Assembly (NCBI GenBank): GCA_903825645.1
Contig: CAIKBL010000051.1
Coordinates: 62,001 to 126,000 of the forward strand
Source: an uncultured Pseudomonadota bacterium
GTDB taxonomy: Bacteria; Pseudomonadota; Gammaproteobacteria; Ga0077536
Length of the DNA: 64,000 bases
Direction of reading: 5' to 3'
Part shown: one piece after another, positions 29,559 to 64,000 of the stretch
How positions within the stretch are numbered: position 1 is the first letter of the stretch
Layout of the letters: the number at the start of each line of letters is the position of its first letter
Notes under the pieces: model-generated
Databases searched by the model: none
Told to the model about the DNA's origin: nothing
Seen by the model: only the letters and a program-made list of their open reading frames with translations
Program-made: the position numbers and the translations under genes

Positions 29559-30983
29559 ATGTCAATCCAGTTATCGAACAGACCGACGCGCCTTGAAGAA
29601 TTGCCGGGCCCCAAGGGGCTGCCTTTTATCGGGAATTACGCCCAGATAAATTTCCAGACGTTCCATTTGCAGCTGGAACGTTGGGCTGCGGAATATGGCG
29701 ATTTTTACCGGGTGCAGCTCGCCGGCAGTCAATTCGTGGTGATCAGCGACGTCGAAGCCGCGAGCGTTGTTCTGCGCGAGCGTCCGCAGGCGTTCGGACG
29801 CCGCTTGGCCTTGCAAGACATTTTCGATGAGCTCGGTTTCAACGGCGTGTTCTCTGCCGAGGACGAGAATTGGCGTCGACAACGTCGGATCGTGGTCACC
29901 GCGCTCAATTCGGCCCATCTCCATGAGTTCTACGCGGCCATGCTGGAGACTACGCATCGCCTTCGACGACGCTGGGAGAAGGCGGCACTGGCCGGTGTGG
30001 CAGTCGACTTATGTGCCGAATTAATGCGTTATACGGTCGATATCACCACACAATTGGCGTTTGGGATTGACTTCAATACGCTGGAAACTGACGGACCGAT
30101 CATCCAGCACCACTTGGATCAGGTTTTCCCGATGCTCAATCGACGCCTGACCTCACCGTTTCCGTATTGGCGATATTTTCGGTTCGGGCGTGATCGCGCG
30201 CTGGATGATGCTGTGAAAGCGGTACGGGCGCAGATCACGGACATCATCACCTCCTGCCGGGCCCGTCTTGCGGATTCCCCTGCGGCGCTGAGTGCCCCGC
30301 GCAACTTTCTAGAAGCCATGATGGCGGCGCAAGCCTCGGAAAACCTGGCATTCACCGATGACGACATCATCGCGAATGCCTTTACGCTTTTACTGGCCGG
30401 TGAAGATACCACGGCAAATACGCTCGCTTGGGCAATTAAATTTTTCACTGACTATCCGGCAATGTTCACGCAGGTGCGCGCCGAGGTGGACGCGGTACTG
30501 GGGCAGGCGAGTGCGCCGGAGAGTCGCGATCAAGCCATGCGTTTGCCGCTGGTCGAAGCCTTCGCCAACGAGACTATGCGACTCAAACCGGTCGCGCCAC
30601 TCTTGATTTTCGACGCCAAAATTCCAATTGAGGTCGGTGGGCTCATGCTGACACCAGGGACCGGGGTCATCCTGCTCTCCAGAGGAATGGCCATCGCAAG
30701 CGATAATTTCGCACAGCCCGAGCAGTTCATGCCGGCACGTTGGCTAGACAAAACAGATCCGGCGCAACGCGTCCATAATGCCAAGGCTTTTGTGCCCTTC
30801 GGTGGCGGGCCCCGTTTTTGTCCAGGCCGTAACTTGGCGTTGCTCGAAATCAAGGTGGTACTCGCCATGTTGTGTCGCAATTTCGACGTTGAGATGGCGA
30901 ATGAGGGCAAAGCAGTGGAGGAGGTTCTAGCCTTCACCATGGTTCCGTCAAATCTGTGGGTTAGATTCAAAAAGAGATGCTGA
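29559..30983 (+). CDS. Cytochrome P450 (474 residues)
   Basis: Haem-thiolate monooxygenase with the I-helix oxygen-activation motif AGEDTTANT, the K-helix ExxR in ANETMRLKP, and the haem-binding loop FGGGPRFCPGRNLA with the axial Cys. Length and the PGPKGLPFIGN N-terminus without a membrane anchor resemble soluble bacterial P450s of the CYP4/CYP102-like type that oxidise fatty acids or similar hydrophobic molecules. It is quite different from the two tandem P450s at 35.6-38.3 kb. No ferredoxin or reductase gene is in the window, so redox partners are elsewhere. The Shine-Dalgarno signal is weak. Confidence 0.93.
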   Translation: MSIQLSNRPTRLEELPGPKGLPFIGNYAQINFQTFHLQLERWAAEYGDFYRVQLAGSQFVVISDVEAASVVLRERPQAFGRRLALQDIFDELGFNGVFSAEDENWRRQRRIVVTALNSAHLHEFYAAMLETTHRLRRRWEKAALAGVAVDLCAELMRYTVDITTQLAFGIDFNTLETDGPIIQHHLDQVFPMLNRRLTSPFPYWRYFRFGRDRALDDAVKAVRAQITDIITSCRARLADSPAALSAPRNFLEAMMAAQASENLAFTDDDIIANAFTLLLAGEDTTANTLAWAIKFFTDYPAMFTQVRAEVDAVLGQASAPESRDQAMRLPLVEAFANETMRLKPVAPLLIFDAKIPIEVGGLMLTPGTGVILLSRGMAIASDNFAQPEQFMPARWLDKTDPAQRVHNAKAFVPFGGGPRFCPGRNLALLEIKVVLAMLCRNFDVEMANEGKAVEEVLAFTMVPSNLWVRFKKRC

Positions 30984-31808: not shown

Positions 31809-33479
31809 TCAGACTTGTCCCGAATTCGTCGCGATAAAGGCCTCCGCCAGCTGACGGAGGATCCCGGCCGGCTCCGCGATGGCGCGTGCCACGATTTCGT
31901 CGGCGCGTTGCTGGAGATCGGCGACCGCATAAATCCGGAGCTCATCCGCATTACCTGACGGACGCACGTGGGCCACGTCACCGTTGTCGAAACTGATTCG
32001 AACCCCATCAGTGGTGTCCATCGCAATGGCCGCTCCGAAGCCCGCCGCGCGCGAGAAAAATTGTGCGAGGGCAGCTAACGAAGCGTCAGGACTTGTCAGG
32101 GCGTCGATGATTTGCTGGCTTGCGGCCTGTGGAAATTGCCGGAGCAGCCCAGCGCTGCTGTAGCGATGTGGTAGCGCGTCAAACACAGCCGAGAGGGATT
32201 GCCCCGTCTCCTTCATGCGGGCAAGCAAGCACAGAATAGGCAAAAAGGCGTCACGGGTTGGCAGGGCGGATAAAGTCCGGCCACCGCGCGTAATGGCCGA
32301 TCCGGTGAGGAAGCCACCGTTGGCCTCCCAGCCGCAGACCCGCGACCGTCCTCGCTGTACAGCTTGCTGCATGCCAGCGATAACGTACGGAGAGCCGATA
32401 CGGGTTTTAGGCTCGAGGACTGCCGCGAGCGTGCCGCGATCAATGGCATCGTTGCAACTGATCGGTACTACCGCCGCGTCGACGTCCAAATAATCGGCCA
32501 CAATCATCCCGACCAAGTCCCCGCCAAAGAAACGCGCTTTCGGTTCGGTGCCTGTCGCGTAATCGAGACCGACAATGAGAGGTCTGTCGGTATCGCCGTC
32601 GCTCGAAATCAGGGCATCGAATCGACCGTGTACACGACACGCTTCACGGGCGTAGTTCTCCATCGTCGCAAGCGTGCTTTCGTCGATGGCCTCGGTGTCA
32701 ATCGGAATAAAGGTTTCAGAGCGTCCGACTGGTAACACCTCCGCACCCAATTGAATCAACATTTCCGGGAGTAAATCACGACCGACGGCGGAATGTTGAT
32801 AAACCAGAATGCGTAGACCGCGCAGAGCTTGCGTTCCAAAGAAGTCCCGATAGCGCTGGAGATAGCCAGCCCGGCCGTCGGCCACCGGCGCAAGGAGAGT
32901 GCGATGACCTTCCTTCAGGTTACCCGCAGGGGTGAAACGGGCATCCGCGCAGGGCGCACTCAGCAGCTGCGTACGCCACCGGGCGGCTCGTTCGTTCACG
33001 GGGGCCTCGTCTGCCTTGAGCAGCTCACCGCGGGCACCGTTTGTTTTGTAGCCGTTCCGGTCGAAGGGGATATGGCTCCCCGTAATCATCATGCTGCCGC
33101 AGCCAGCGGCCAGCGCCCAAGCCGTCAGCGCGGGTGTCGGGATCTCACCCAAATTGACGGGCCGCAATCCTGCTTCTCGGATGGCGCACTCGATGGCTTG
33201 TGCGAGCTCCCCGCGCCCGCCGTGCTCGGCCACGAAACGGGTAGAGCTCGGTCGCAAATCGTGCGCAAAATAAAAGTCATGACTGGGTCTGATACCCCCG
33301 CGCGCTAACGGCAAGTCAAGCAGATAATCCAGCTCCGCGCGCGCATTCAGATAGATTTCGAGCTGGGTTAGATCTGAAACTTTGCCGCGACGACCGCTGG
33401 TCCCGAAATTGAGCGGCTGCGGCACATAGGTCAGGGCGCGGCCGAGACTGCCAGGCGGCCAGTTCTGTAGGTAGGTCAA
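31809..33479 (-). CDS. Phosphohexomutase (phosphomannomutase/phosphoglucomutase family)
   Basis: Alpha-D-phosphohexomutase of 556 residues, moving phosphate between C1 and C6 of a hexose phosphate. Seen are an N-terminal FGTSGRRGKV substrate loop, the phosphoserine loop MITGSHIPFDRNGYK (usually TASHNP, here GSHIP), and the metal-binding DGDTDRP. The loop residues differ from standard PMM/PGM, so specificity is uncertain. The start is TTG 33479, overlapping the globin stop as TTGA with GGAG 7 bases upstream, so it is coupled to the globin gene. Confidence 0.85.
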   Translation of the reverse strand: MTYLQNWPPGSLGRALTYVPQPLNFGTSGRRGKVSDLTQLEIYLNARAELDYLLDLPLARGGIRPSHDFYFAHDLRPSSTRFVAEHGGRGELAQAIECAIREAGLRPVNLGEIPTPALTAWALAAGCGSMMITGSHIPFDRNGYKTNGARGELLKADEAPVNERAARWRTQLLSAPCADARFTPAGNLKEGHRTLLAPVADGRAGYLQRYRDFFGTQALRGLRILVYQHSAVGRDLLPEMLIQLGAEVLPVGRSETFIPIDTEAIDESTLATMENYAREACRVHGRFDALISSDGDTDRPLIVGLDYATGTEPKARFFGGDLVGMIVADYLDVDAAVVPISCNDAIDRGTLAAVLEPKTRIGSPYVIAGMQQAVQRGRSRVCGWEANGGFLTGSAITRGGRTLSALPTRDAFLPILCLLARMKETGQSLSAVFDALPHRYSSAGLLRQFPQAASQQIIDALTSPDASLAALAQFFSRAAGFGAAIAMDTTDGVRISFDNGDVAHVRPSGNADELRIYAVADLQQRADEIVARAIAEPAGILRQLAEAFIATNSGQV

Positions 33480-33958
33480 GAGAGTGCTCCGTGTTCATCC
33501 GCGCGGGTGCCGTCCGTGGGGGCTTGTTGCCGATTCACCATCCACGCGGAAAAGCCTTCCAGGAAACGCCGGAACCCAGCCAGATGTACCACCGGGAAAT
33601 CGAACTCACTGACGGCGCGATCGAGCACGCGTTCAAAGCAGGCGAGCCACTCTCGCCGCCGGTCATCCGTGATCGCGAAGGGCAGATGTCGGGCGCGCAT
33701 CATCGGGTTTCCGTAGCGCTCCTGGTAGCGTGGAGGTCCACCCAGTAGCCCGACAAAAAACGCCGCTGATTTTCGGGAGGCACTGACCATATCCACCGGA
33801 AACAATGCTCGCAACGGTGTGGACGCATGATCGAGCTCGAGGTAAAAGGCTTCTAACATCCGATAGATGTTCTCTTCCCCCATCACCGCAAAAATTTCCC
33901 GGCTCGGTCCGGGGATCTCTCCTGGCCTAATAGGAGGCACAAATAATGCGTCGCTCAT
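33476..33958 (-). CDS. Truncated haemoglobin, group II-like
   Basis: A 160-residue 2-over-2 globin. Key residues are Tyr39 (B10, EAFYLEL), the GGPPRYQERYG loop, the probable proximal His91 in MRARHLPF, and Trp104 (G8), characteristic of group II. Roles proposed for the family include oxygen delivery and nitric oxide or peroxide chemistry. It overlaps the hydroxypyruvate isomerase stop by 4 bases and the phosphohexomutase start by 4, so it sits inside a three-gene coupled operon of otherwise sugar-metabolic genes. Confidence 0.9.
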   Translation of the reverse strand: MSDALFVPPIRPGEIPGPSREIFAVMGEENIYRMLEAFYLELDHASTPLRALFPVDMVSASRKSAAFFVGLLGGPPRYQERYGNPMMRARHLPFAITDDRRREWLACFERVLDRAVSEFDFPVVHLAGFRRFLEGFSAWMVNRQQAPTDGTRADEHGALS

Positions 33959-34737
33959 CGTCCGGGTCCTTGGGGATAGGCATCGAGCCAGCCGAGGCCC
34001 GCGGACGTCTCGCGACGCGGTTTATATTCACAACCCACCCAGCCAAGGTAGCCCGTCGCGTCAAGGGTGGCTAGGACGTGCTGGAAATTAATCTCGCCGT
34101 GATCGGGCTCTCCGCGATCAGGTGGCTGTGCAATCTGTACATGACCTGCCACCGCGGCAAATTCATCCACAGCGCCCGTCAGATCGCCCTCCATTATCTG
34201 ACGATGGTAAAGATCGAGCTGGAGTTTGATATTCGCTTCTGCGACCAACGTCATCACGGCGAGCGCCTCGGTGGTTCGATTAATGAGATAACCGGGGATA
34301 TCCCGTGTATTGATCGGCTCCACCAACACGGTGATCTTTTCGAGGGCGGCAAGTATCGTCGCATTTTTTAGATTGCGGACGAAAACTTCGCGGGTCGCCC
34401 CTTGATGAATCAAACCGGCCATAACGTGAATCCGGGGACAGTGCAGCGCACGCGCGTAGATCAGCGCCTGCGCGAAGCTTTGCTCGAACGCCCGTTCCCG
34501 CCCCGGGAGCGCGGCAATGCCGCGTTCTCCTGCCTTCGCAAAATCGCCAGGCGGCGCGTTGAACAAGACGACCTGAAGGTGGTGAGCGTTCACCTCCTTG
34601 ACGATGTCTTCGACCGAGTAGGCATACGGGAATTGGAATTCCACGGCGCTGAAACCCGCCGCCGCCGCGGCCCCAAAGCGCTCAAGGAAGGGCACCTCCG
34701 TGAACATTAGCGATAGGTTGGCGGCAAAGCGGGGCAT
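33955..34737 (-). CDS. hyi: Hydroxypyruvate isomerase family protein
   Basis: TIM-barrel isomerase of 260 residues that interconverts hydroxypyruvate and tartronate semialdehyde. It matches Hyi closely: ANLSLMFTEVPFLERF at the N-terminus, FNAPPGDFAKAGERGIAALP, LVEPINTRDIPGYLI with the catalytic Glu, QLDLYHRQIMEGDL, and a C-terminal GCEYKPR. Glyoxylate carboligase and tartronate semialdehyde reductase are not adjacent, so the gene may act in a different route here. First gene of the operon with the globin and phosphohexomutase. Confidence 0.88.
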   Translation of the reverse strand: MPRFAANLSLMFTEVPFLERFGAAAAAGFSAVEFQFPYAYSVEDIVKEVNAHHLQVVLFNAPPGDFAKAGERGIAALPGRERAFEQSFAQALIYARALHCPRIHVMAGLIHQGATREVFVRNLKNATILAALEKITVLVEPINTRDIPGYLINRTTEALAVMTLVAEANIKLQLDLYHRQIMEGDLTGAVDEFAAVAGHVQIAQPPDRGEPDHGEINFQHVLATLDATGYLGWVGCEYKPRRETSAGLGWLDAYPQGPGR

Positions 34738-34774
34738 CGGTGTTCCGGGGTCTCGGCAGGCGTTTGAGCCTGCT

Positions 34775-35437
34775 TCAGGCGGCGTCGGTCGTTGATGACT
34801 GCGCTATCTGGCGTAGCGCTTGTGCAAAAACCGCCGGCGATTGGCCGCCCTCAATCAGATATTGATCATTAATGATGACCGCCGGAACGGCATGGATGCC
34901 TGCGCTGGTGTAGCGCTGCTCTTGGGCACGGACTTCTGCCACAAAGCGATCGGAGGCGAGCAGATCGGCAGCCTCAGCGGCATCGAGACCGACTTCGGCT
35001 GCGACCCTGCACAGCACCGCCGCTTCACTGGGTGCTTCGCCGTCCGTGAAATAGGCCCGAAAAAGCGCATGCTTTAACGCCTGTTGGCACCCTGTAGATT
35101 CGGCCCAGTGTAATAACCGGTGCGCGTCGAACGTGTTGTAGATGCGATTGCGCTTTTCCATGAGAAAGACGAAACCCAGTTCAGCCCCTCGCGTTCGGAT
35201 GGCCTCGCGGGTGTCCGCGAATTCGTCAGCCGTACGACCATATTTCTGCAGCAGATGTTCATCGAGATCTTGACCTTCCGGGGGCATCTGCGGATTGAGT
35301 TCAAACGGCTGAAAATGAATCTCTGCGGTAATGTCCGCCGCGACCTCGTCAAGCGCCTTTTCTAATGATTTGAGCCCGATGACGCACCAGGGGCAGGAGA
35401 TGTCGGAAACAAAATCAATCTTGACTGCGGTTTTCAT
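34775..35437 (-). CDS. DsbA-family oxidoreductase (FrnE-like)
   Basis: A cytoplasmic thioredoxin-fold protein of 220 residues in the DsbA/FrnE group. The active site is SCPWC (Cys15, Cys18) after DFVSDI. An alpha-helical insertion follows, and the cis-proline loop is AVPAVIIND. There is no signal peptide, unlike periplasmic DsbA. FrnE-like proteins have been tied to disulfide exchange and oxidative stress. ATG 35437 is preferred to the longer frame because AGGAA precedes it at good spacing and it matches the family start. Confidence 0.9.
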   Translation of the reverse strand: MKTAVKIDFVSDISCPWCVIGLKSLEKALDEVAADITAEIHFQPFELNPQMPPEGQDLDEHLLQKYGRTADEFADTREAIRTRGAELGFVFLMEKRNRIYNTFDAHRLLHWAESTGCQQALKHALFRAYFTDGEAPSEAAVLCRVAAEVGLDAAEAADLLASDRFVAEVRAQEQRYTSAGIHAVPAVIINDQYLIEGGQSPAVFAQALRQIAQSSTTDAA

Positions 35438-35651
35438 TAGGAATTCCTCGAAACAAACGATGGCGCCGAATGTCCGGCGGGCGATATCTACCACATCCGG
35501 GAAAGGGCGTCATGTGAAGCAAATGGTGCGGCGCGGTAATTATAGACAAAAACGATGGCACAAACGTCCAACCTGTAAGCCGGTTTCAAATTGGGCGAGA
35601 CTCGTGTATTTAAACGAACCGTTACTTCGTTTTAGTACCGAGGATGTCCCA

Positions 35652-36938
35652 ATGCCGTTAGATCTTGACAAAATTGACCTTCACTCGCCACACCGCTATG
35701 CGACCCAGGGCTTCCCGTGGGCAGAGTGGGCGCAGCTTCGGGATGAAGCCCCGGTGTTTTGGTACGAGCGCGACGACATTGAACCTTTCTGGGTGATCAC
35801 TCGTCACGCTGACGTGATGACGATTTCTGAAGATTCGAAGACCTTCATTAATGGCGGACCGCGATTGCGGTTGGCCCTCAAGGGAGAGGCCGAGCTACTG
35901 CGGGGTGGCGTCGATTCCTTTGGACTTTCTCGCGGATGGAATCCTCAAGAGCCGCCGGACTTCACTTTTATGGATGATCCGCGCCACCGGCATACCCGCA
36001 AGCTTTCGAGCTGGGCGTTTACCCAAGGCTGTATGCGCGAGGTCGGCGCCCATTTTGATGCGCTGGCGGAAACCTTTACAGAAGAGTTTCTCACGGCGTT
36101 AAAAGAATCAGATACCTGCGATTTCGTGCACGAACTTGCCGCTAAACTCCCGCTCGCCGCGACGGGGGAGATCCTCGGTTTGCCGCCGGAAGATTGGAAG
36201 CAATTGCTGGTCTGGTCAAACGCGATCATCGGCGAAGTCGAGCCTGAGCATATCCGGTCCGGCGAGACCGTTACGCAGGCCGCCGAACGGAACATGAGCG
36301 ATATGCGCAGTTACCTGGAAGCACTGATTCAGGAACATCGCGCCCCGGGCGGCGGTCCATCCCCGTTCGTCAACCGTCTGGTGAACGGCAGAGTCAATGG
36401 TGAGCTCCTGAACGAGCAGCAGCTGAACAGCTATCTTTTTCTGTTGATCGGGGCCGGCAACGATACGACCCGCAATGCGACGACCGGCGGTTTGGTCGCC
36501 CTACTCGAACATCCTGATCAGCGCGATTTGCTTTGCGGCAATGCGGCTCTCATTCCGGGCGCGGTCGATGAAATCCTGCGCTGGACATCACCCGTGATCA
36601 GTTTTCTGCGGACCGTGACGGAGGATACGGTGATCAATGACCAGTCGCTCAAGGCCGGGGATACGGTGTGCATGTTCTATCCATCGGCGAACCGCGATGA
36701 TCGGGTCTTTTCAGATCCTTACCGGTTTGACATCACGCGTGACCCCAACCCGCACATTACGTTTGGCTTTGGCGCGCACTTCTGCCTGGGGGCAAATCTC
36801 GCTAAAGCAGAGTTACGGTCGGTATTGAAAGCCTTGAGAGGGGTGCTACCGAGATTAGAACTGACCGGAGAGTCACGCCGGATTGCCAACACGCACGTCT
36901 CGGGGTTTTCGATGCTCGGCGTCCGTGCCGTCGCCTGA
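35652..36938 (+). CDS. Cytochrome P450, tandem copy 1 (CYP125/124-like)
   Basis: Soluble P450 of 428 residues with all core motifs: I-helix GAGNDTTRNATTGG, K-helix DEILRWTSP, and haem loop FGFGAHFCLGANLAK. The FMDDPRHRHTRKL segment and overall pattern resemble actinobacterial and proteobacterial P450s acting on sterols, terpenoids or branched lipids. The frame is open upstream to 35331, but ATG 35652 follows GAGGA and gives the family N-terminus. It is 140 bases before a shortened paralogue. Substrate and redox partner are unknown. Confidence 0.93.
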   Translation: MPLDLDKIDLHSPHRYATQGFPWAEWAQLRDEAPVFWYERDDIEPFWVITRHADVMTISEDSKTFINGGPRLRLALKGEAELLRGGVDSFGLSRGWNPQEPPDFTFMDDPRHRHTRKLSSWAFTQGCMREVGAHFDALAETFTEEFLTALKESDTCDFVHELAAKLPLAATGEILGLPPEDWKQLLVWSNAIIGEVEPEHIRSGETVTQAAERNMSDMRSYLEALIQEHRAPGGGPSPFVNRLVNGRVNGELLNEQQLNSYLFLLIGAGNDTTRNATTGGLVALLEHPDQRDLLCGNAALIPGAVDEILRWTSPVISFLRTVTEDTVINDQSLKAGDTVCMFYPSANRDDRVFSDPYRFDITRDPNPHITFGFGAHFCLGANLAKAELRSVLKALRGVLPRLELTGESRRIANTHVSGFSMLGVRAVA

Positions 36939-37078
36939 CCACACACTCAGGATGATGAGGCGTTGGTAGTGCATGATTTAGCGCGTTCTCTACGGCGTTT
37001 CGATGGTGCCGAAGCCGCGCACTGGCATGTCGTTCGGCAAGCCTGCGCTGTGTCTGGACCCTCACGGAGGTTATGACG

Positions 37079-38260
37079 ATGCGTTTCGAATTGGCTGAAA
37101 TCGATCTGCATCGGCCAGATCGCTGCGCTACCCAAGACTTTCCGTGGCGAGAATGGGCGCAGCTGCGCGAAGAGGCTCCCGTCTTCTGGTATGAACGTGA
37201 TGACGTGGAGCCGTTCTGGGCAATAACGCGCCACGCTGACGTCCTCAAAGTCTCCGAGAATTCGAGACTTTTCATCAATGGCGGACCGCGTTTGCGACTG
37301 ACTTTGCGGGGCAGTCCGGAGACTCTGCGGGGCGGGGTGGGCGCATTCGGTAACTCGAGAGGCTGGGATTCGGCAGAGCCACCTGATTTTGTGTTCATGG
37401 ACGATCCGCGTCACCGCCATACCCGGCGGCTTTCCAGCGGAGCCCTTACCCAAGGCTGTATGCGCGCGGTCAGCGAGCATTTCGATGCGCTTGCGGAGGC
37501 CTTCACCGCGGAATTTGTCGCCACACTGCAAAGCACCGCAAGTTGTGACTTTGTGCGTGAGTTGGCGGCCAAGTTGCCGCTGGCAGCGACAGGCGAAATA
37601 TTGGGATTACCGCCCGAAGACTGGAAACAATTACTGGTTTGGTCGAACGCCGTGACGGGCGGCGGGCCATCCCCCTTCATCAACCGCTTGGTGAATGGTC
37701 AAGTGAATGGCGCGGCTTTGAACGATCAGCAGCTGAATGGCTATCTATTTCTGCTGATCAGCGCGGGGAACGATACCACGCGGTATGCGACCGCGGGTGG
37801 CGTGGCGGCACTCCTCGAAAACCCAGCACAGCGCGATCTATTGTGCGCCAATCCGTCACTCATCCCCCGCGCAGTCGATGAGATGTTGCGCTGGACCTCG
37901 CCGGTTATCAGTTTTCTGCGCACCGCCACGGCAGATGTGTCGCTCAACGGACAGGCGATCAAAGCCGGCGACACGCTCTGTCTCTTCTATCCTTCGGCTA
38001 ATCGTGACGAGCGCGTTTTCGCAGATGCTGATCGCTTCGATATCACCCGCGATCCGAATCCGCATATCACCTTTGGCTTCGGCGCACACTTTTGTCTCGG
38101 CGCAAATCTCGCCAAAGCGGAGCTGAAATCGATTCTCAAGGCATTACTGGGGATTTTGCCGCAACTCGAACTGACGGGTGAGTCACATCGGCTCGGCAAC
38201 ACCCATGTTTCCGGTTTTTCGCTACTTGGTGTGCGACGCGCGGGTCAGGGGGGCACCTGA
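37079..38260 (+). CDS. Cytochrome P450, tandem copy 2 with internal deletion
   Basis: Paralogue of the preceding P450, 393 residues. I-helix SAGNDTTRYATAGG, K-helix DEMLRWTSP and haem loop FGFGAHFCLGANLAK are intact. After residue 191 (LVWSNA) copy 1 has about 41 residues (its 192-232, the segment expected to hold the F-G loop, helix G and start of helix H), whereas copy 2 has two, then both resume at GGGPSPF. The reading frame is kept. This segment forms the lid over the substrate pocket in P450s, so activity may be altered or lost. ATG 37079 lies 8 bases after GGAGG; the ATG at 37073 is too close. Confidence 0.9.
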   Translation: MRFELAEIDLHRPDRCATQDFPWREWAQLREEAPVFWYERDDVEPFWAITRHADVLKVSENSRLFINGGPRLRLTLRGSPETLRGGVGAFGNSRGWDSAEPPDFVFMDDPRHRHTRRLSSGALTQGCMRAVSEHFDALAEAFTAEFVATLQSTASCDFVRELAAKLPLAATGEILGLPPEDWKQLLVWSNAVTGGGPSPFINRLVNGQVNGAALNDQQLNGYLFLLISAGNDTTRYATAGGVAALLENPAQRDLLCANPSLIPRAVDEMLRWTSPVISFLRTATADVSLNGQAIKAGDTLCLFYPSANRDERVFADADRFDITRDPNPHITFGFGAHFCLGANLAKAELKSILKALLGILPQLELTGESHRLGNTHVSGFSLLGVRRAGQGGT

Positions 38261-38287
38261 CGTGGCCCGGTCGCTCAGCAGGCTATC

Positions 38288-39214
38288 TCAGCGGTCGCTG
38301 CCCTCCGGCCAACCCCACCGGGTACGGACCGTTCGCGCTAGGGAATATTCTACGGACGTCTTCTCCCACGGCGCCTGAAAGGCCATGTGAACGGCCGCGA
38401 GGCGCATCCCGTCAGGATGGGGCGTGCTGCCGTATTTGAGATCGCCGAGTACTGGATAACCGGCATCCGCGAAGTGACGCCGAATCTGATGATGGCGGCC
38501 GCTTAGCATGGTGATCTCGACCTGGGTCATTCCTGCCGCCGCATTCACCCCCACCACGGTGTACGCCGTGGCAGCAGCTTTGCCGTCCAGCGGCGTGTCG
38601 AAGCTACCCTGGGCGCCGATAGCGCCTACTATCCCTTGGACTTCGATGAAGTAGCGTTTGTGCACGGACCGTGCTTGAAACAGCGCCGAAAGTCCGGCCG
38701 CGGCCTGTGCCGTGTGCGCAATGAGAATGAGGCCGGAGGCTTCCAAATCGAGCCGATGCACCAACCAAACCGGGCGCGTCGGGCTGAAATGATGCTCGAC
38801 CTGACGAAGTAACGTCGCATGATCCCCATACCGCGAGCCCTCGACGAGGAGCCCTGCGGGCTTGTCCCAGACACTGTAGCGCTTCGCATCCGCCACCAGG
38901 CGCGGGGGCGGCGGGACATAGGCGAGGATCACGCTGTCGTAATAGAGCGAGAGGCGATCGCCGGTGCACAGTGCACCGGTCGCGCGACGCAAACGCTGCG
39001 GTCGACGTCCCGCCCGGCTGAGCCAGACCGCGCCCTTCTGCATAGCGTCTTTGACCCGCAACTTCGACAGTCCGCTCGCTTGCGCGAGGAGATCGGGTGC
39101 AAACGCGCTCGCCGGATCGCTGACGGTGACCTCCGTCAAAAACTGTTCGCGCACCGCGCTGGTACTCAACTTACGCCGCAGGACCCGATGCCGGGTGGGC
39201 TTTCTTCCTAGCAT
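38288..39214 (-). CDS. RluA-family pseudouridine synthase
   Basis: RNA pseudouridine synthase of about 308 residues. The catalytic Asp is in the HRLDLEASGLILIA motif. Also present are WDKPAGLLVEGSRYGD upstream and LSGRHHQIRRHFADAGYPVLGD downstream. An N-terminal region precedes the catalytic domain. It differs from the canonical RluA/C/D subfamilies, so the target uridine is not assigned. ATG 39214 is preceded by an in-frame GTG, and no Shine-Dalgarno sequence is evident. It overlaps the upstream hypothetical gene by about 44 bases, indicating coupling. Confidence 0.88.
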   Translation of the reverse strand: MLGRKPTRHRVLRRKLSTSAVREQFLTEVTVSDPASAFAPDLLAQASGLSKLRVKDAMQKGAVWLSRAGRRPQRLRRATGALCTGDRLSLYYDSVILAYVPPPPRLVADAKRYSVWDKPAGLLVEGSRYGDHATLLRQVEHHFSPTRPVWLVHRLDLEASGLILIAHTAQAAAGLSALFQARSVHKRYFIEVQGIVGAIGAQGSFDTPLDGKAAATAYTVVGVNAAAGMTQVEITMLSGRHHQIRRHFADAGYPVLGDLKYGSTPHPDGMRLAAVHMAFQAPWEKTSVEYSLARTVRTRWGWPEGSDR

Positions 39215-49344: not shown

Positions 49345-51126
49345 CTAGGCGCCGTGTGCTTCGTTGAGTCTCGCCAAGAATTCATCCGCGAAGACCCGCA
49401 TGTCCGCGATACCTTCCTTGGCACGTGATCCTAAATAGTTGTAGCCAAACAAGGCCGGAATCGCGACACCCAGTCCTGCTACGGTAGCGAGCAGCGCCGC
49501 TGCCATGCCCGGCGCGATGGCTGAGATATTCACATCGCCGGTGGATGCGATCGTCGCAAACGTGACCATCACCCCCACCACGGTTCCTAACAGACCGATG
49601 AAGGGTCCGCCGGAAATGGCGATGGTCAGCAGGACCAGCAGACTGTTGATTTTCTGGCTCTCGCGAACCATCGTCGCGTCGAGCGAGGCACGGATAGAAT
49701 TGATGGATTTGGCATCGAGCCCTATGCCAGAGTGCGTTGCCGCTGCATCCAGCCTGCGCCGGACTTCGTCCAGACCCTGGCGGTAAACCCGGAAAAGCGG
49801 TGAGTCGCCAAAAGATGCCTCGCCTTCGACGAGCGCGTCAAGTTGGGTCGCGGTGACCTGGGTGTGATACGCATCGAGGAATCGCGCTGAGGCGCGACGG
49901 TTTCGGCCCAGCGCCGAGGCCTTTATAAACATCACGAGGAAAGCAGCCGCCGCCATCACGAGGCAGACGCCGATAACAGTCTGCTCCACGATCGCTTCCT
50001 TGTTACCGAAGACAAATTGCACGATGGTGCCAAAGCGACTGGCGGACTTCGTTTCGCCTTCGGTCCCAGCGTTATCCTGATTTTCGTCGGCCGAATAATG
50101 CATCACCAACTCGTTCTTCTCGCCTTCAATACCCGCTTCGGCCAGGAAGAAGTCAGGCGTTTTCGCGCCGGTGTAAAAACGTAACTCATCGAGCTGCATC
50201 GCAAGCAGACCCTCGCCGCCAACACCGCCACCAACGTTTATGGCCCCTCCCATTTCGGAGACGTTTACGGGCACTTTGCCTGCCGACTTTCCGTTAACGA
50301 AAAGTTCAAGCTGACCGCTGACGATTGAAACCGCCAGATGTGTCCATTGCCCTGCGGTGATGGGAGTTGGCGCGGTGACATCCATGGCCCCAACGCGTGC
50401 GACGACGTGGCCGCCCGACACGATGAGGCTAAACCGTTGGTCCCGGTCGCTCCGGTCCAAGAGGTATCCCACCGCCGTGGGGATGGCGTCGAATTTCACC
50501 CACAGCGAGGCTGCCCACCCCTTACCCATTAGTCGCAGGCTCGACGCATCCTGGACCTGGAAGGAGGAGGCGGTACCGCTCATACTCGCCCCGCTACCAA
50601 TGAGCGAAGCCGGATTCGAAATGGTGTGCCCGAGCGTCGGAACGGCATAGGCCGTACTGTCGACGACGGCCCCGGCAAGATCGGCGAAATGAAAATTTGC
50701 CGCCGTATCGACGTCAAACGTGTTGGCGATGTCATCCGCTTTTGTCGCCTTCTGGTTACCGAAATAAAGGTACAGCTTATTCTCTTTCGACTGGGGCAAA
50801 AGATTTGGCACCTTGACCCACACAAAGGCTATCTGCGAAGCCACGTCGAAGCGCTCTACGTGGTATTTCAACGGCGTCTTGTCGTCTCCGGCGATGATTC
50901 TGAAATCAGCCCCGCCTTCTTTTACATTCAAGAATTGCGGGAAATTTCCCGAATGCAGCCGTAACAGCACCGGCAAGTTGGCGACAGGTGTCGTCACATT
51001 GAGCCCGGCCACCGTCGTATCAACCGTGATCACCTTTCGCGATGACCAATCCGGGTTCCACCAAGCGAAGGCACTAGGCACGTGCAGGCTCAAAGCAAAA
51101 ATTGCGGCAATAACGAGACGTGCCAT
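49345..51126 (-). CDS. exbB: ExbB/TolQ-type channel protein with N-terminal DUF2341 and LamG-like domains
   Basis: A 593-residue fusion. It starts with a signal peptide (RLVIAAIFALSLHVPSAFA), then a DUF2341 domain opening with WWNPDWSSRKVITVD (about 22-130), and a concanavalin/LamG-like domain (about 140-350, with SLWVKFD and WTHLAVSIVSGQLELFVNG). A membrane helix follows near 395-420, then a MotA/TolQ/ExbB channel domain (about 425-590) with ISGGPFIGLLGTVVGVM and PGMAAALLATVAGLGVAIPA. Ordinary ExbB is about 240 residues. The added part faces the periplasm and probably binds glycan or protein. ATG 51126 gives the signal peptide; the frame extends to 51261. First gene of the operon. Confidence 0.9.
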   Translation of the reverse strand: MARLVIAAIFALSLHVPSAFAWWNPDWSSRKVITVDTTVAGLNVTTPVANLPVLLRLHSGNFPQFLNVKEGGADFRIIAGDDKTPLKYHVERFDVASQIAFVWVKVPNLLPQSKENKLYLYFGNQKATKADDIANTFDVDTAANFHFADLAGAVVDSTAYAVPTLGHTISNPASLIGSGASMSGTASSFQVQDASSLRLMGKGWAASLWVKFDAIPTAVGYLLDRSDRDQRFSLIVSGGHVVARVGAMDVTAPTPITAGQWTHLAVSIVSGQLELFVNGKSAGKVPVNVSEMGGAINVGGGVGGEGLLAMQLDELRFYTGAKTPDFFLAEAGIEGEKNELVMHYSADENQDNAGTEGETKSASRFGTIVQFVFGNKEAIVEQTVIGVCLVMAAAAFLVMFIKASALGRNRRASARFLDAYHTQVTATQLDALVEGEASFGDSPLFRVYRQGLDEVRRRLDAAATHSGIGLDAKSINSIRASLDATMVRESQKINSLLVLLTIAISGGPFIGLLGTVVGVMVTFATIASTGDVNISAIAPGMAAALLATVAGLGVAIPALFGYNYLGSRAKEGIADMRVFADEFLARLNEAHGA

Positions 51127-51575
51127 TGAGGTTTTATTCCGTATTTTTGATATTCCTAGGGCGCGAATTATCGAGACATAATTATTACAGGGGCGTGAAG
51201 ACGACTTCGAAATCGCCCCGACTCGATCAACCAAGACCATGAAAATAATGGAGAAATACATCGCTTTTCGATTCTGTTTGGCGACGCCACCCCAAAAACT
51301 AGTGTAGGCGGGAATAAGATTTTTAAAAAATTACAATATCGCCTTACTGTCTGGTTTTACTTAATTTATTTTTTTTATTGCGATCTCCAGGCAATGCCAA
51401 CATGGAATCTCTTCGAACGCTCCTCTACTGAATACGCACCCTGTGTGCTCACTAGCTGCGTGCTACTTCGACGATCGGTGCCTACTCGGATTTTTTTTTA
51501 GCTTCCCGCCGTGCCGCAAAATGACGTAGATTCGCGTCGCTTCTCGCGCCTTAACATCATCCTTGAATTTACAGC
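51127..51575. other. AT-rich divergent promoter region
   Basis: 449 bases between the ExbB operon (minus) and the TPR gene (plus), clearly richer in A+T than the genes beside it, with long T- and A-runs around 51320-51380. A hairpin with GGGGCG/CGCCCC arms and an inner GAAG/CTTC stem (51190-51219) lies in the presumed ExbB leader. No reliable -35/-10 pair could be fixed. Confidence 0.5.
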
Positions 51576-56733: not shown

Positions 56734-59700
56734 ATGAACCTTGATTTTGCAGCGGCTGTTTATTTTGTTTTGCGTTGGTCAAAGATCCCGGCCCGCCAAA
56801 TTCTGCGCTTCGAACTGGGATTGGGGCTGATTCCGGTAGCGGTGTCTGCTGCGGTGCAGGGGCCTTTGCCTGTGCCGAGTTCAAATTTCGTGACCGCCGG
56901 TAGCGCGAAATCACCCGTCGTTGTCGGCAACACGATGAATGTCACGCAAAGCTCGCCAAATGCATCGCTAGATTGGCAGAGCTTTAATATCAACCACGGT
57001 TACACTGTAAATTTTATGCAGCCGTCCTCGGCAGCAGTGGCCATCAATGAAATCCACCAAGCTAACCCGGTGCTCATTCAAGGGGCGCTAAACGCAAATG
57101 GGCAGATTTATCTGATCAATCAGAATGGCATCGTGTTCGGTGCTGGCGCTCAGGTCGATACGCACGCCCTACTAGCCTCGACGCTGGACATTACCGCGAC
57201 CGCGCTGCAAAAAGGGATAGTGAACGCTTTCAATCAAGGCGGCGCTATACAGCCGGCCTTCACGGCGGTGCTCGACGGTCAGGGACACCCGATCAACGGC
57301 GACGTCACGGTTGCGGCAGGGGCGTCGCTACAGACGTCGGGAACCGGTGGCCAGATCTTACTGTTCGGGCCCAACGTGACCAATCTAGGCACGATCAATG
57401 CGCCTGGCGGTACGGCGGCGCTCGCAGCCGGGAGCAAAATCTATATTCAGACGCCGACGACTGGCACAGGCCTGGTCGTTGAAGTGGGCAACGGTGGCAC
57501 CGTGACAAACGGGAGCGCGGCGAATGCGCAGATCACAAATCCGAGTGCGTTGCTTGGCCAGATCGTAGCTGATGGCGGAACGGCGTCACTCGTGGGGCTT
57601 GCGGTCAATCAAATGGGTCGAGTCACCGCAAGCACGGCGGTCAGGCAAAACGGGACGATACGTCTTTTGGCCCGCGAATCGACGCCGAGCGGTTCAGTGG
57701 TGTCGCCCAGCCGTGGCGGTGTCGTAACGATCGGACAGAACAGTGTCACGGCAGCAGATCCCGATATGAACGATACGTCGACGACGCTCGACGCGAATCC
57801 GCAACCCGCAGGTGTCGTTGACGTCCGGGGTGCGCAGATCGTGCTCAAAAAAGACGGTCTGGTCGATTCGCGTAGCGGCAACGTCAAACTCATCGCGGCC
57901 GGTGATGGTAGTGACGTGCCTGTTAAGGGGGATGGCTCGCGCGTGCTTTTGGAGAGCGGGGCAAAAATCGATACCTCCGGGGAGCGGGTTGCCTTACCGG
58001 CGGGACGAAATGCGCTGACGGTAAAGCTAGAGACCGCCGCGCTGGAAAATTTACCGGTTCAGCGCCAGGGGCCACTGTTAGGACAGACGATCACGGTTGA
58101 TGTCCGTCAACACGGCACAAATGCGGATGGGACCACGTGGGTCGGGACGCCACTGGCCGATTTGAACTCCGCGCTGGGCAACATTGGTCGCACAGTCGGA
58201 GAGCGCAGCACCCACGGCGGCACAGTTTCGCTAGACGGCGATAGCGTTATCCTGGCACCAGGCGCGGTGTTGAATGTCGGCGGCGGAAGTACGCAATACG
58301 CGAATGGGCCCGTGCAGACGACTATGCTCTTCAACAACGGGAAAATTACGGACATCGCAAGCGCCAATCCGAACGTTGCCTACAGCATCTACGGCACCGA
58401 ACGGGTGATGCACCCGAAGTGGGGCGGATTGGATACCTATTCGGTTTTCTATTCCGGGAATGACATCTTGGGTGGTAGCGGGGCTGGCTACACCAGCGGA
58501 GCCGATGCCGGCACGATTAATGTACAAGGGTATGGTCTGATCCTAGACGGCACCCTTTTTGGCGGCACCCTACCGGGGACACTGCAGCGTCTGCCCGCGA
58601 GTCTCCGGCTCGCCCCGGGTGCCGTGAGGCCTTACGATCAGTTACCTCTCGCCGGGGCGCTGTTGATTGGCGCGAGCATCGCGGAGCAACTCAACGCCGC
58701 GGTGCCGGACTTCGTGACCGGCTCGGTCACGATCGCACCGGTGACGGAACTCACGGCGCCAGGTTTGGCAAATTTTGACCCGCTTTTCGATGTGTTTCCC
58801 GCATCGATCACGAGCACCTACATCAACCCAGGGTGGTTTGGTAATGGAAAGCTCGGTCAACTGGCCATTTATAGCGACGGGGCGGTTAGTTTGCCCACGG
58901 GCACCACGCTCGATTTAGGTCCTGGCGGGACGCTAGTGGTAAAGGCGGGCGACATCGCCCTCGCGGGGAACCTCGTGGCGCAGGGGGGGGCGGTTACCCT
59001 CAGCGCGCGCAACACGGCAGATCAGGTCCGCACCGGAAGCTTGACACTGTCACCTACGGCGTTAATCGATGTTAGTGGCCAATGGGTCAACGATTTCGTC
59101 GCCGCACGAACGACGCCGGGTGCGGGCAGTCCGCCCCTTGTCCTCAACGGGGGCAATATCAGCCTGACAGCACACGAAGCGTTGCCGGGTCAAGGGGGAC
59201 TCAATCTGTTCGCCGGCAGCGTTCTTCGGGTAGATGCGGGCGCGGAGCTTTCTCTTAACGGCAAAATCAGCAGCGGTGCGGGCGGTAGTATTGGTCTCAG
59301 TGCGACACCCGTTGCGGGCACGCAGAATGTGTCGTCAATTTTTGACGCGACCCTGTCCGCTTACGGGCTGTCATCGGGTGGCAGCCTCTCGGTGACGGCA
59401 CCGGCAATCTGCTTCAGCGCGCTCAGTTGTGCCACGGCGCCTATCGCGCCGATTGTTTTTCAGCCGGCCTTTCTGCACACCGGGGGATTCTCGGCGTACA
59501 GTTTTACCGCAGTCGGTGGTGCGCTCACGGTCGAGAGCGGAACAACCCTTTTCCCAGAACAAGATAACTTAGTCCTTTCGCCGCTCGCGCAGAGTACGAC
59601 TGGCTTAGAGCTTAGTCAGGTGAGCCACCTCGCACGCCTCGCGGATTTCGCCCGTCAACCGGTCAATTTATCGCTCCGCGACCGGATAAACGGCAACCTC

Positions 59701-62700
59701 GCGGGCGTTGTCACGGATGCCAGTCTTCGCGCTGGCAGTTTTCTCAACGTGGAAAGGGGCACAAAGATAATCGGCGATCCAGGCGCGACGCTCAGTTTTG
59801 CATCGGATACGCGCGCCTACCTCAATGGCGCTGTAACGACGCCCGGTGGCAATATCAACGTGTCGATAACCAGCGGTATCGGGATCAATATTGGGGATTT
59901 TTTGGCCAGTCAGACGCTATGGCTTGGTCCGCAGGCGACGCTGGATACTCACGGCGTCTATATTGCCCAACCGATTGAGACGAATTTGCGGACGGGCGTC
60001 GTCTGGGGCGGTGGGAACGTCAATCTCAGTGCTTTGAGCGGTTATCTCGTGGCAGAGCCCGGTGCTCTCATCGATGTCCGTGGGACCCGGGCCGTCCTTG
60101 ATATTTCGCCCTACGGAGTCGGCACGAGTTTGGGTTCGGTACCGACCCTAGTCGCCTCGAATTCCGGTTCAATTGTATTGGATGCTGCAGAAGGTATTTT
60201 CTTCGGTGGCACGATTAACGCAGGGCCCACCATGCCGAGTTCAGGTGCGGGCGCGCTCTCAGTCCAGCTGAACGCGCAAACCTCGAACTATCTCGCCTAC
60301 GAGCAGAGCGGTCTCACTGGGGTGGCGCTTCCAGTCGCGCCAAGAACCCTGCACATTATGGACGCCAATCCGTTCCAGAATTCGAGTGCCGGCGCGCTGC
60401 GTCTCCAAGCAGATCCACAAACGACTTATGCGCTTTCGCCCGGCGGCGACGTCCCAACCACGTTGAACGGGCAGGGTTTCTTGGGTACCTCGCTGCTAGC
60501 GGGCGCTAGTCTGGGCGACCTCAAGCTTTCTGCGCGCAACCTGGATTTAGGCTCCGTAGTTCCTGGCCAAGTCCTCTTCAATGGCAATGTATCACTCGCC
60601 ACGTCGCGGTCGATTACGGTGAATAGCGCGAGCCTGGCATCCGACGGTGGCCATGTCCAGTTGAGCGCCCCGCACGTCGTGCTGGGCAATCAGGATGGTA
60701 ATTTGGACGGAACTGAACCGGGCGGTGCCTCCCAAGCGGTTTCGTTACCGCAAAGGGGCACAGGTCTGCTTACCATCGTGGCGGATACAATCGATCTGGT
60801 CGGCAAAGCCGTCCTGAACGGCTTCAGCTCCACCCATTTCTCGGCATCTGAAGATATCAGGGTCAGTGGCGTTCAGTCAGACCCGACTAGCCCGGTCCTG
60901 ACGGGGAGTCTGACCACGACGGGCGATCTCGCCTTCGCCGCCCGCGAACTGTACCCGACAACGCTCAGCCAGTTCTCGCTGAACGTCGTCCAGAATTCAC
61001 TCGGGGTCATCTCCCTCGACAGTACGGCAGCCCCGGAGCCCATACTTTCCGTGGGCGGCGCGCTCACGCTCCAGGCCCCGACCATCCTTCAGCGGGGGAC
61101 TTTGAAAGCGCCGCTGGGCAGTTTGACGCTCGCCGCGAGCAACCAACTGGCACTGAGCGCCGGCAGTCTGACTTCAACCTCGCTCGATGGAAGCACGGTC
61201 CCCTTTGGACGCGTCGAACTCGGCAAGGACTGGGTCTATATGCTCCCAGGCTCGGCAGGCGAGCTGGTGTTCACCAATAAAACGCGGACATTGCCTAGCC
61301 AGCATATTCTGCTCTCCGGGCCCGCCGTTACACTCGCCGCCGGAAGTGTCGTGGATGAGTCTGGCGGTGGCGATCTGCTTTCCTACGAATTCCAACCTGG
61401 CCTGAGCGGCACGAAGGATGTCCTCGCCGCGGGCGGACTCGCCAACACGTTCGCCATTGTGCCGACCCTGCATAGTGCCTATGCGCCGATTGATCCGCAG
61501 GAAATGTCTGCCGGACCAGACGCGCTCGGCTCAAGTCTGCGACTGGAGACGGGCGTCGCGGGGATTTCTGCGGGGTTGTACGCGTTACTACCTGCACGTT
61601 ACGCCTTGTTGCCCGGCGCCGTATTGGTGACGTCGGTGGCGGGATTTTCGGACCTTGGCGCCGGGCAACAGATCCCCGCGCTGGGCGGCGGCACGATCGT
61701 GGCGGGACGCCTTTCCTCGGCCAACGGATCGGAATACGCCAGCGTCTCTAGTGGGTTCCTTATCCGTACGGCGACCGACATTGCGAAGCTTGGGCAATAC
61801 GATCTACATACGGCTAATGCCTTTGGCGGCCTTGCGGGCCAGGCGCTCCCGCGTGATGGCGGCGTTCTGCAGATACAGGCCGGCTCAAGCCTTGCCCTCG
61901 GGGGGATCTTGAATGCCGCACCGGGGTCCGGCGGCGTGGGCGCCGAAGTGCAGATCACCGGGACTAGCCTTGCGGTCGTCGATGGCACGCCGTCCTCGGC
62001 CATCTCTCCCGGCGCACTGCTGATCGATGCGCGCGGTTTGGATAGGCTGGGTGCGGCAAGTATTCTCCTCGGTGGCTCACGCGCGAACGAGGGGGGAATC
62101 GATAACGTCACCGTCACCGCGCAGCGGGTGGAACTCGACGCGGGGGTTGCCGTGTTCGCCCCGGAGGTGATTCTTGCAGCCACCGACACGGTCCAGATTG
62201 ACGCAGGGGCAACCCTCTCGGGGACTGGTGCGGTGTACGGGAATCCACTAGGACTACGGGTGAGTGGGGATGGTGCATTCGTGCGTGTCGCGTCTGCACC
62301 CGCCGTTTCGTTCGCGCGTACTCAAGTCGCGGGACTGACCGGCAGCCTCAACATGGCGCCCGGCAGCCTCCTGAGTGCGACCGGTTCGATGTTGCTCGAT
62401 TCCACCCTGGATACTCACTTAGATGGAGCGCTTTCAGCGCACGGCGGCGCGGTTGCGCTGAGTGCGTCGCAAATCAGTCTGGGCGCGGTGACGGGAAGTC
62501 CCGCCGGCCTTACGCTCAATGACGCCCAACTTACCGCCTTGAACGCGGGATCCCTGAGTCTCACCAGCCGTAGCGCGTTAGATATCTATGGGCCAACTAT
62601 CCTGAACCTGCAGTCACTCGCGCTGGATGCCGTCGCGCTGCGGGGCTTCGGCAACCTCGGCGATACGGCACGAATAGATGCGCAAACCTTAACGCTGTCC

Positions 62701-64000
62701 GACAGCACCTCAGGTAGCGCGCTGCAGGACGGCAGTGGCGCGGGCGCGTTGGCAATCGAAGTTAATCGGCTCAACTTCGGGCGTCAGCTGGTTGCGCTCA
62801 GTGGCTTCGCGGAAACGACGCTCACGGTCCATGACGAGATCGTCGGCACCCGCGACACGGGCGGCATGTTGTCCCGGGGGCCACTGAAGGTTTTCGCGCC
62901 ACGGATGACGACCACCGATGGCGCGAGCTTCTCGCTGAACAGTGATGCGGCGTTGCAGATTTTCTCTTTGGCACCGAACCCCATCGCGGGCATTACCGCG
63001 TCAGGGCTGGCAGGGAAGATCACGCTGTCCGGCGCGAGCTTGCTGTTTGATAGCACCTTAGAGGTCCCCTCCGGGGAGGTTAGTCTCCGCGCGACCTGTG
63101 GGGGACTCAATGCAGTGGTCTGCGGGACGACGGCCGGCGATTTAGTGTTGGGCAGTCACGCACTGATTAACGTCGGGGGGCAATCAGCACAGTTCTACGA
63201 CACAAGCGCCGCAGCGCCGGGTGGAACGGTCTCATTGGCCGCCGCATCAGGCGATGTGATGATCACCTCGGGTGCCAACCTGAACCTAGCCGCAGCCGCG
63301 CCCGGCGGTTCGGCCGGCTCGCTGACGGTCGCCGCATCGAATGGCCAGTTTCAACTCGCCGGGACGGTCAATGACGGCGCTACCACGGCGTCCAACTCAG
63401 GACGGTTCTCGCTGGATGTGTCTACCCTACCGAATTTTTCAGGGCTCAACGCCGCGCTCAACGCAGCCGGTTTCCTAGCTGAACGAGATTTTCACGTGCG
63501 AGGCGGCAATTTGATCGTTTCAGCAGGAGATGCGGTGAAGGCGACCATCCTGAATCTGACCGCAGACAACGGCGCGATCGGTATTGCAGGAAAGCTGGAC
63601 GCCAGTGGGCAGCAGCAGGGTGGCTCAATTCGATTGAACGCACTGAATACGATCGAAGTCCTTCCGGGGGGCGTGCTCGATGCCTCTGCGCGGGGAACGC
63701 GTGGTACGGGTGGCAACATCAATCTGAGCAGCATCACCGGGGGGATCCTGCTGGATAGCGGATCGGCTACCGATGTCTCCGGGACACTGTCAGGGGGCGT
63801 CATCCATGCTCGCGTCAGCGCGCTCGAGGCGCTCACGCTCACCAACGCCGACCCGACGACCTATCAGGTCGCATTGAACGGAATTGCTGGCGCCAGTAGC
63901 GTAGTTCTCGAGGCCTATCAAACGGCGGCTGATCTGATCTCAGGACTCAACTTTGCTCAGAATTGGATGGCGAATAATGCCAGCAGTGTCGGCGCTGGTT
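56734..64000 (+). CDS. Filamentous-haemagglutinin-type exoprotein (TpsA), 5' part, open at window end
   Basis: One reading frame runs from ATG 56734 to the window end without a stop (at least 2422 codons). The N-terminus carries a two-partner-secretion haemagglutination domain at about residues 60-300: MNVTQSSPNASLDWQSFNIN, VNFMQPSSAAVAINEI, and NGQIYLINQNGIVFGAGAQV are its hallmarks. The rest is Gly/Ala/Thr/Leu-rich with repeated short beta motifs, as in a long right-handed beta-helix. The signal region is atypical, with a basic stretch (RWSKIPARQILRF) before the hydrophobic core. No TpsB/FhaC transporter is in the window; it may lie beyond the end. There is no clear Shine-Dalgarno sequence. 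Likely an adhesin or surface fibre. Confidence 0.9.
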   Translation, partial: MNLDFAAAVYFVLRWSKIPARQILRFELGLGLIPVAVSAAVQGPLPVPSSNFVTAGSAKSPVVVGNTMNVTQSSPNASLDWQSFNINHGYTVNFMQPSSAAVAINEIHQANPVLIQGALNANGQIYLINQNGIVFGAGAQVDTHALLASTLDITATALQKGIVNAFNQGGAIQPAFTAVLDGQGHPINGDVTVAAGASLQTSGTGGQILLFGPNVTNLGTINAPGGTAALAAGSKIYIQTPTTGTGLVVEVGNGGTVTNGSAANAQITNPSALLGQIVADGGTASLVGLAVNQMGRVTASTAVRQNGTIRLLARESTPSGSVVSPSRGGVVTIGQNSVTAADPDMNDTSTTLDANPQPAGVVDVRGAQIVLKKDGLVDSRSGNVKLIAAGDGSDVPVKGDGSRVLLESGAKIDTSGERVALPAGRNALTVKLETAALENLPVQRQGPLLGQTITVDVRQHGTNADGTTWVGTPLADLNSALGNIGRTVGERSTHGGTVSLDGDSVILAPGAVLNVGGGSTQYANGPVQTTMLFNNGKITDIASANPNVAYSIYGTERVMHPKWGGLDTYSVFYSGNDILGGSGAGYTSGADAGTINVQGYGLILDGTLFGGTLPGTLQRLPASLRLAPGAVRPYDQLPLAGALLIGASIAEQLNAAVPDFVTGSVTIAPVTELTAPGLANFDPLFDVFPASITSTYINPGWFGNGKLGQLAIYSDGAVSLPTGTTLDLGPGGTLVVKAGDIALAGNLVAQGGAVTLSARNTADQVRTGSLTLSPTALIDVSGQWVNDFVAARTTPGAGSPPLVLNGGNISLTAHEALPGQGGLNLFAGSVLRVDAGAELSLNGKISSGAGGSIGLSATPVAGTQNVSSIFDATLSAYGLSSGGSLSVTAPAICFSALSCATAPIAPIVFQPAFLHTGGFSAYSFTAVGGALTVESGTTLFPEQDNLVLSPLAQSTTGLELSQVSHLARLADFARQPVNLSLRDRINGNLAGVVTDASLRAGSFLNVERGTKIIGDPGATLSFASDTRAYLNGAVTTPGGNINVSITSGIGINIGDFLASQTLWLGPQATLDTHGVYIAQPIETNLRTGVVWGGGNVNLSALSGYLVAEPGALIDVRGTRAVLDISPYGVGTSLGSVPTLVASNSGSIVLDAAEGIFFGGTINAGPTMPSSGAGALSVQLNAQTSNYLAYEQSGLTGVALPVAPRTLHIMDANPFQNSSAGALRLQADPQTTYALSPGGDVPTTLNGQGFLGTSLLAGASLGDLKLSARNLDLGSVVPGQVLFNGNVSLATSRSITVNSASLASDGGHVQLSAPHVVLGNQDGNLDGTEPGGASQAVSLPQRGTGLLTIVADTIDLVGKAVLNGFSSTHFSASEDIRVSGVQSDPTSPVLTGSLTTTGDLAFAARELYPTTLSQFSLNVVQNSLGVISLDSTAAPEPILSVGGALTLQAPTILQRGTLKAPLGSLTLAASNQLALSAGSLTSTSLDGSTVPFGRVELGKDWVYMLPGSAGELVFTNKTRTLPSQHILLSGPAVTLAAGSVVDESGGGDLLSYEFQPGLSGTKDVLAAGGLANTFAIVPTLHSAYAPIDPQEMSAGPDALGSSLRLETGVAGISAGLYALLPARYALLPGAVLVTSVAGFSDLGAGQQIPALGGGTIVAGRLSSANGSEYASVSSGFLIRTATDIAKLGQYDLHTANAFGGLAGQALPRDGGVLQIQAGSSLALGGILNAAPGSGGVGAEVQITGTSLAVVDGTPSSAISPGALLIDARGLDRLGAASILLGGSRANEGGIDNVTVTAQRVELDAGVAVFAPEVILAATDTVQIDAGATLSGTGAVYGNPLGLRVSGDGAFVRVASAPAVSFARTQVAGLTGSLNMAPGSLLSATGSMLLDSTLDTHLDGALSAHGGAVALSASQISLGAVTGSPAGLTLNDAQLTALNAGSLSLTSRSALDIYGPTILNLQSLALDAVALRGFGNLGDTARIDAQTLTLSDSTSGSALQDGSGAGALAIEVNRLNFGRQLVALSGFAETTLTVHDEIVGTRDTGGMLSRGPLKVFAPRMTTTDGASFSLNSDAALQIFSLAPNPIAGITASGLAGKITLSGASLLFDSTLEVPSGEVSLRATCGGLNAVVCGTTAGDLVLGSHALINVGGQSAQFYDTSAAAPGGTVSLAAASGDVMITSGANLNLAAAAPGGSAGSLTVAASNGQFQLAGTVNDGATTASNSGRFSLDVSTLPNFSGLNAALNAAGFLAERDFHVRGGNLIVSAGDAVKATILNLTADNGAIGIAGKLDASGQQQGGSIRLNALNTIEVLPGGVLDASARGTRGTGGNINLSSITGGILLDSGSATDVSGTLSGGVIHARVSALEALTLTNADPTTYQVALNGIAGASSVVLEAYQTAADLISGLNFAQNWMANNASSVGAG

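Follow-up and report, generated by a model that had tools for sequence, protein, structure and literature searches.

Copy 2 of a tandem P450 pair in the window (the whole 64-kb stretch of DNA that was analysed) lacks 39 in-frame residues, which correspond to the F-G loop and helix G of its neighbour, copy 1. Copy 2 is probably a freshly disabled duplicate and less likely a new open-pocket enzyme. The account as a whole, in which a duplicate diverged and of late lost its lid and, probably, its activity, carries moderate confidence. If copy 2 is inactive, the pair neatly captures a P450 duplicate in the course of dying from a single in-frame deletion of the lid. Gene callers would log such a loss as an ordinary P450. 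An active copy 2 would mean that a P450 can fold and catalyse without helix G and the F-G loop, and it would offer a naturally occurring scaffold whose haem pocket is exposed. The two genes lie head to tail, both on the + strand, with the following features.

35652..36938, +: copy 1, intact P450 of 428 aa (Pfam p450 2.2e-25; full P450 fold in the model)
36186..36227, +: copy 1 helix F, residues 179-192 (DSSP on the model)
36231..36347, +: copy 1 residues 194-232, covering the F-G loop and helix G and absent from copy 2
36762..36791, +: copy 1 haem-binding motif FGFGAHFCLG (sequence; invariant columns)
36939..37072, +: spacer of 134 nt between the copies, in which no terminator-like site was found
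37066..37070, +: Shine-Dalgarno-like GGAGG, 8 nt upstream of ATG 37079 (sequence reading)
37079..38260, +: copy 2, P450 without the 39 residues, 393 aa (395 aa from ATG 37073; Pfam p450 5.6e-22)
37613..37651, +: copy 2 helix F, residues 179-191, retained (DSSP on the model)
37652..37672, +: deletion junction GTG ACG / GGC GGC GGG CCA TCC, a G+C-rich short direct repeat
37763..37780, +: copy 2 helix I oxygen-activation motif AGNDTT, retained (sequence)
37880..37891, +: copy 2 ExxR (E268-R271), retained (invariant columns)
38072..38101, +: copy 2 haem-binding motif FGFGAHFCLG, retained (invariant columns)

The missing segment and its conservation

The copies were identical at 295 of 389 aligned residues (75.8%) and at 817 of 1167 aligned nucleotides (70.0%), with 80, 45, and 225 differences at the three codon positions of the 389 codons. 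The sole internal gap in the alignment was the 39 codons absent from copy 2, between LVWSNAVT and GGGPSP. The earlier note had placed an in-frame loss of 39 residues right after LVWSNA, and this gap bears out the loss. ATG 37079 is the likelier start of copy 2 than ATG 37073 because of the GGAGG upstream and the N-termini of relatives.

P450s are recognised by the haem-ligand motif FxxGxxxCxG, by ExxR, and by AGxDTT in helix I. All three were present in copy 2, the NRD meander was also retained, and G333, G335, C339, G341, E268, R271, G230, and T233 are invariant columns. The statement in the earlier note that the haem and oxygen-activation motifs are intact therefore holds for AGNDTT, E268-R271, NRD, and FGFGAHFCLG. 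Copy 2 scored 78.6 bits against the Pfam p450 model (cut-off 22.8), and its frame was open over 393-395 codons, free of the stops and frameshifts of a pseudogene. Its distal lid (helices F and G) was incomplete, with 39 codons absent and helix G missing from the model.

Both copies were modelled with AlphaFold2, as the earlier note had proposed. The model of copy 1 had a complete CYP125-like fold (mean pLDDT 91.8, pTM 0.92), with helix F at residues 179-192, helix G at 207-230, and helix H at 238-245. Since the absent residues are 194-232, helix F is retained and the entire F-G loop and helix G are gone; the earlier note had placed the loss at the F-G loop and helix G. The model of copy 2 had a mean pLDDT of 83.7, with most of the core above 90 and the junction residues 191-199 below 50. 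Block means over residues 171-230 of copy 2 were 72, 60, 39, 64, 73, and 75, against 88-94 over residues 171-240 of copy 1. The B-C loop of copy 2 was also poorly modelled, with block means of 68, 49, and 55 over residues 71-100.

CYP125 (steroid C26-monooxygenase) was the best sequence and fold match for both copies, and CYP125MRCA (8vxg/8vxi) was the best solved relative (1.2e-88 for copy 1 and 1.5e-78 for copy 2). Copy 1 had 39% identity to CYP125MRCA in Foldseek and 42% in VIA (Z 49.6, rmsd 2.4, 391 aligned), and 30-34% identity to M. tuberculosis CYP125. By the rule of P450 nomenclature, membership of a family requires more than about 40% identity. At 39-42% identity to CYP125MRCA, copy 1 sits on this borderline and is at most a putative member of the CYP125 family. 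The best VIA row for copy 2 was M. tuberculosis CYP125 2x5w (Z 46.4, rmsd 2.2, 368 aligned), a high Z that tells only of a P450-like core in the model; copy 2 differs from CYP125 in that the F-G loop and helix G are absent. The second-best sequence and fold matches were CYP108 (P450terp), CYP124, and CYP142, which are full-length proteins with 30-32% identity to copy 1 in Foldseek rows.

Both copies fall inside an uncharacterised, mostly gammaproteobacterial P450 group (58-79% identity), and all 27 aligned members of this group retain the lid, whereas copy 2 does not. In this comparison of orthologues, also proposed earlier, none of the 27 (26 full-length, 1 partial; about 58-79% identity to copy 1) had a gap anywhere in copy 1 residues 194-232. 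G194, G204, E205, R213, R219, and Y221 were identical in all 26 full rows. Residues 194-232 were somewhat less conserved than the remainder, with a mean majority share of 0.68 against 0.77 and 10 of 39 columns against 172 of 389 at a majority share of at least 0.9. In a wider set of P450s, taken from 39 of 80 relative loci, all 39 had 45-55 residues between the anchors that flank the lid; copy 2 would have 15 (54 minus 39). Recent lid loss is favoured because all 27 relatives and the 39 wider P450s keep the segment. A literature search that covered titles and the openings of abstracts found no P450 without helix G, though one may still exist in print.

The lid counts and the tree left out L035 (G025, which ends at residue 206), matches at 38% identity or less, G032:C101 and G024:C258 (no locus), and contig duplicates of genes already taken from whole genomes. 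The partial L034 was used in the lid count and the codon models and was excluded from the tree. Among the relatives, L050 and L063 (also L081 and L096) are P450s in records whose titles read Klebsiella pneumoniae or Bifidobacterium breve MAG. These titles look wrong because the L050 and L063 genes are also those of G008 and G016, which belong to the family of the window.

Origin of the pair and of the deletion

The copies were sisters in the tree (ultrafast bootstrap 93, SH-aLRT 87), and their similarity is therefore not due to chance. Two other groupings that exclude copy 2 were weakly rejected: copy 1 plus L017 (p-AU 0.030), and copy 1 plus both L017 and L018 (p-AU 0.045). The grouping of copy 2 with L017 survived the topology test (p-AU 0.141). 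In-situ duplication of the P450 gene is favoured, short of proof.

The loci of two genomes of the same genus were compared with the window. The P450 of G001 was 77-79% identical and that of G003 was 75% identical, with the same upstream genes as here, encoding a phosphoglucomutase, a xylose-isomerase-like protein, and a DsbA-like protein. In G001, the P450 itself is split across two contigs, and the gene after it is, by eye, a convergent alpha/beta hydrolase, with no second P450. In G003, a stretch of about 110 bases behind the P450 resembles the end of the same hydrolase, and the contig then stops. Since G001 and G003 have one copy beside the shared upstream genes, the pair is most likely a lineage-specific tandem duplication. 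In the window, the block at 31809-35494 (- strand), divergently upstream of copy 1, holds phosphoglucomutase, bacterial globin, xylose-isomerase-like, and DsbA-like genes. Parts of it were matched in G001 and G003, and the globin had no separate match there.

The junction in copy 2 reads GTG ACG GGC GGC GGG; the corresponding borders in copy 1 are ATC GGC GAA on the left and CCG GGC GGC GGT on the right. Slippage between short GGCG-type direct repeats would account for the loss of 117 bp.

The preferred course of events begins with a CYP125/CYP124/CYP108-like soluble bacterial P450 that, as the tree and synteny suggest, was tandemly duplicated in this lineage, with copy 2 as the downstream member. 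Copy 2 diverged under purifying selection, and it would then have lost the 117 bp by slippage between the G+C-rich repeats at the junction, which would take out the F-G loop and helix G. Helix F would be joined to helix H through a few glycines and prolines over a gap normally spanned by helix G. The likeliest outcome is a protein that may fold around haem yet lacks a closable substrate pocket and would then be inactive or strongly uncoupled. The open frame of copy 2 would reflect the recency of the loss and not the usefulness of the lidless form.

Selection on copy 2 and the alternative readings

A codon model of 11 genes gave lnL -9081.6 with one omega and -9078.6 with the omega of copy 2 free (0.034 against 0.075). 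With the copy 2 branch fixed at omega = 1, lnL was -9126.5, a rejection by about 45-48 log units. Strong purifying selection thus acted on copy 2 through most of its history. The whole-branch omega covers the copy 2 branch and says nothing specific on the time after the deletion. It was rejected as a decisive test of the present function of copy 2, because synonymous sites are near saturation and the branch spans time before and after the deletion. NG86 dS between the copies was not computable, 225 of 389 codons differed at the third position, and the branch lengths are approximate.

A neutral-tail model of 12 genes used three site classes and let the final segment of the copy 2 branch evolve neutrally; only this branch was re-fitted, on a grid. 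The change in lnL was +0.28 at 0.01, -0.93 at 0.06, and -3.53 at 0.10 substitutions per codon, which places the best fit near 0.01 and the tail below about 0.075 neutral substitutions per codon. By these codon-model fits, constraint acted along most of the copy 2 branch, and a period without it, if any, was short. The intact relative L032 took a larger neutral tail (+3.23 at 0.06, against +0.28 at 0.01 for copy 2), so a neutral tail is no signature of loss.

Of the 117 columns that do not vary among the 26 full relatives, copy 2 kept 112 and broke 5, and copy 1 broke 2. The protein branch of copy 2 was longer than that of copy 1 (0.30 against 0.14), and counts of unique residues were uneven at p = 0.16, 0.02, or 0.20, depending on the outgroup. 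The rate increase of copy 2 over copy 1 is modest.

The earlier note had argued that copy 2 "has not simply decayed" and had called for its dN/dS. The dN/dS estimate rejected neutral evolution on the branch and did not separate the period after the deletion. The argument is thus upheld for nearly the whole branch, where purifying selection acted; recent lid loss in a working duplicate gives identical data. A young loss fits because copy 2 carries only one visible lesion and the best-fit neutral tail is short. Against decay, copy 2 has no second lesion, an intact ribosome-binding site, and a deletion that preserves the frame (a chance of 1 in 3); it also keeps the 112 of 117 invariant columns, and its unique changes cluster in the B-C region, which could be a sign that it adapted to the missing lid.

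The B-C loop faces the F-G lid in P450s. Of the residues unique to copy 2 in a comparison with copy 1, L017, and L018, 11 of 24 were in copy 1 positions 63-125 (the B-C loop and the start of helix C), against a pooled 5 of 56 for the other three rows (p = 0.0004, a post hoc value, as the region was drawn only after the unique changes had been listed). With the borders 61-110 taken from the model, the counts were 8 of 24 and 6 of 56 (p = 0.024). In a codon model with equal time for the copies, a separate and higher copy 2 rate in 63-125 gained 3.66 log units (2 x delta lnL = 7.3). The excess over copy 1 alone was non-significant for three borders (p = 0.17, 0.32, and 0.73). This clustering is a lead only, and it would fit an adaptive response to the missing lid, relaxed constraint once the lid was gone, or earlier divergence in substrate.

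Three readings offered in the earlier note are possible at most: that the pocket is open, that the substrate range differs, or that copy 2 is a non-catalytic partner of copy 1. One alternative is a working P450 that lost its lid some time ago and whose open, solvent-exposed distal pocket would take bulky or tethered substrates or act in a peroxygenase-like way, with the B-C region compensating. This reading is unlikely, although copy 2 retains every catalytic motif, omega = 1 is rejected, the neutral tail is little or none, and the unique changes gather in 63-125, where an extra rate improves the codon model. The lidless state is common to no relative, and the junction of copy 2 is unresolved by AlphaFold2. 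The B-C region was picked post hoc, and the same pattern would arise if substrate specificity diverged before the deletion. It is more doubtful still that selection kept copy 2 without helix G, with a re-shaped B-C region, as an open-pocket P450 distinct from its sister. Overall, a working P450 without a lid ranks between improbable and unlikely.

The gap would also arise from an error of assembly or sequencing, or from a deletion that only some members of the population carry. In favour of this, the assembly is a draft of 90 contigs, the junction consists of G+C-rich, repetitive sequence, and a close member of the family sits 1.4 kb from it. However, copies with 70% nucleotide identity are too dissimilar to collapse easily, the deleted length is a whole number of codons, and synonymous differences of copy 2's own reach the junction from both sides, which makes such an origin improbable. 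P450-derived glycosyltransferase activators (TIGR04515) are P450-like proteins that are not enzymes. That copy 2 is likewise a non-catalytic haem or partner protein (a regulator, an electron sink, or a partner of copy 1) would suit two neighbours on one strand, separated by 134 nt in which no terminator-like site was found, but it is very improbable: unlike what is expected of such activators, copy 2 retains the haem cysteine, as well as the oxygen-activation motif, its score against TIGR04515 is 112.9 bits, far under the curated cut-off of 343, and no such pair was seen among the loci of relatives. A freshly disabled duplicate is the reading that we prefer to all of these.

Other features of the window

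No sigma-70-like promoter was found in 35300-38500 by the promoter scan, and scans of the 64-kb window found no Rfam families or tRNAs. A third, unrelated P450 lies at 29559-30983 (+ strand; 474 aa, Pfam p450 279 bits). Among solved structures, chains of plant LUT5 and of the human CYP3A4 type come nearest to it, and it was absent from the matches of copy 1 within its own genome. The gene at 49345-51261 (- strand) encodes a 638-aa protein with DUF2341, laminin-G-like, and MotA/ExbB proton-channel domains. At 56734-63999 (+ strand), a giant glycine- and serine-rich, repetitive frame is open for more than 2422 aa and continues past the end of the window; by eye, it resembles a secreted protein of the filamentous-haemagglutinin type.
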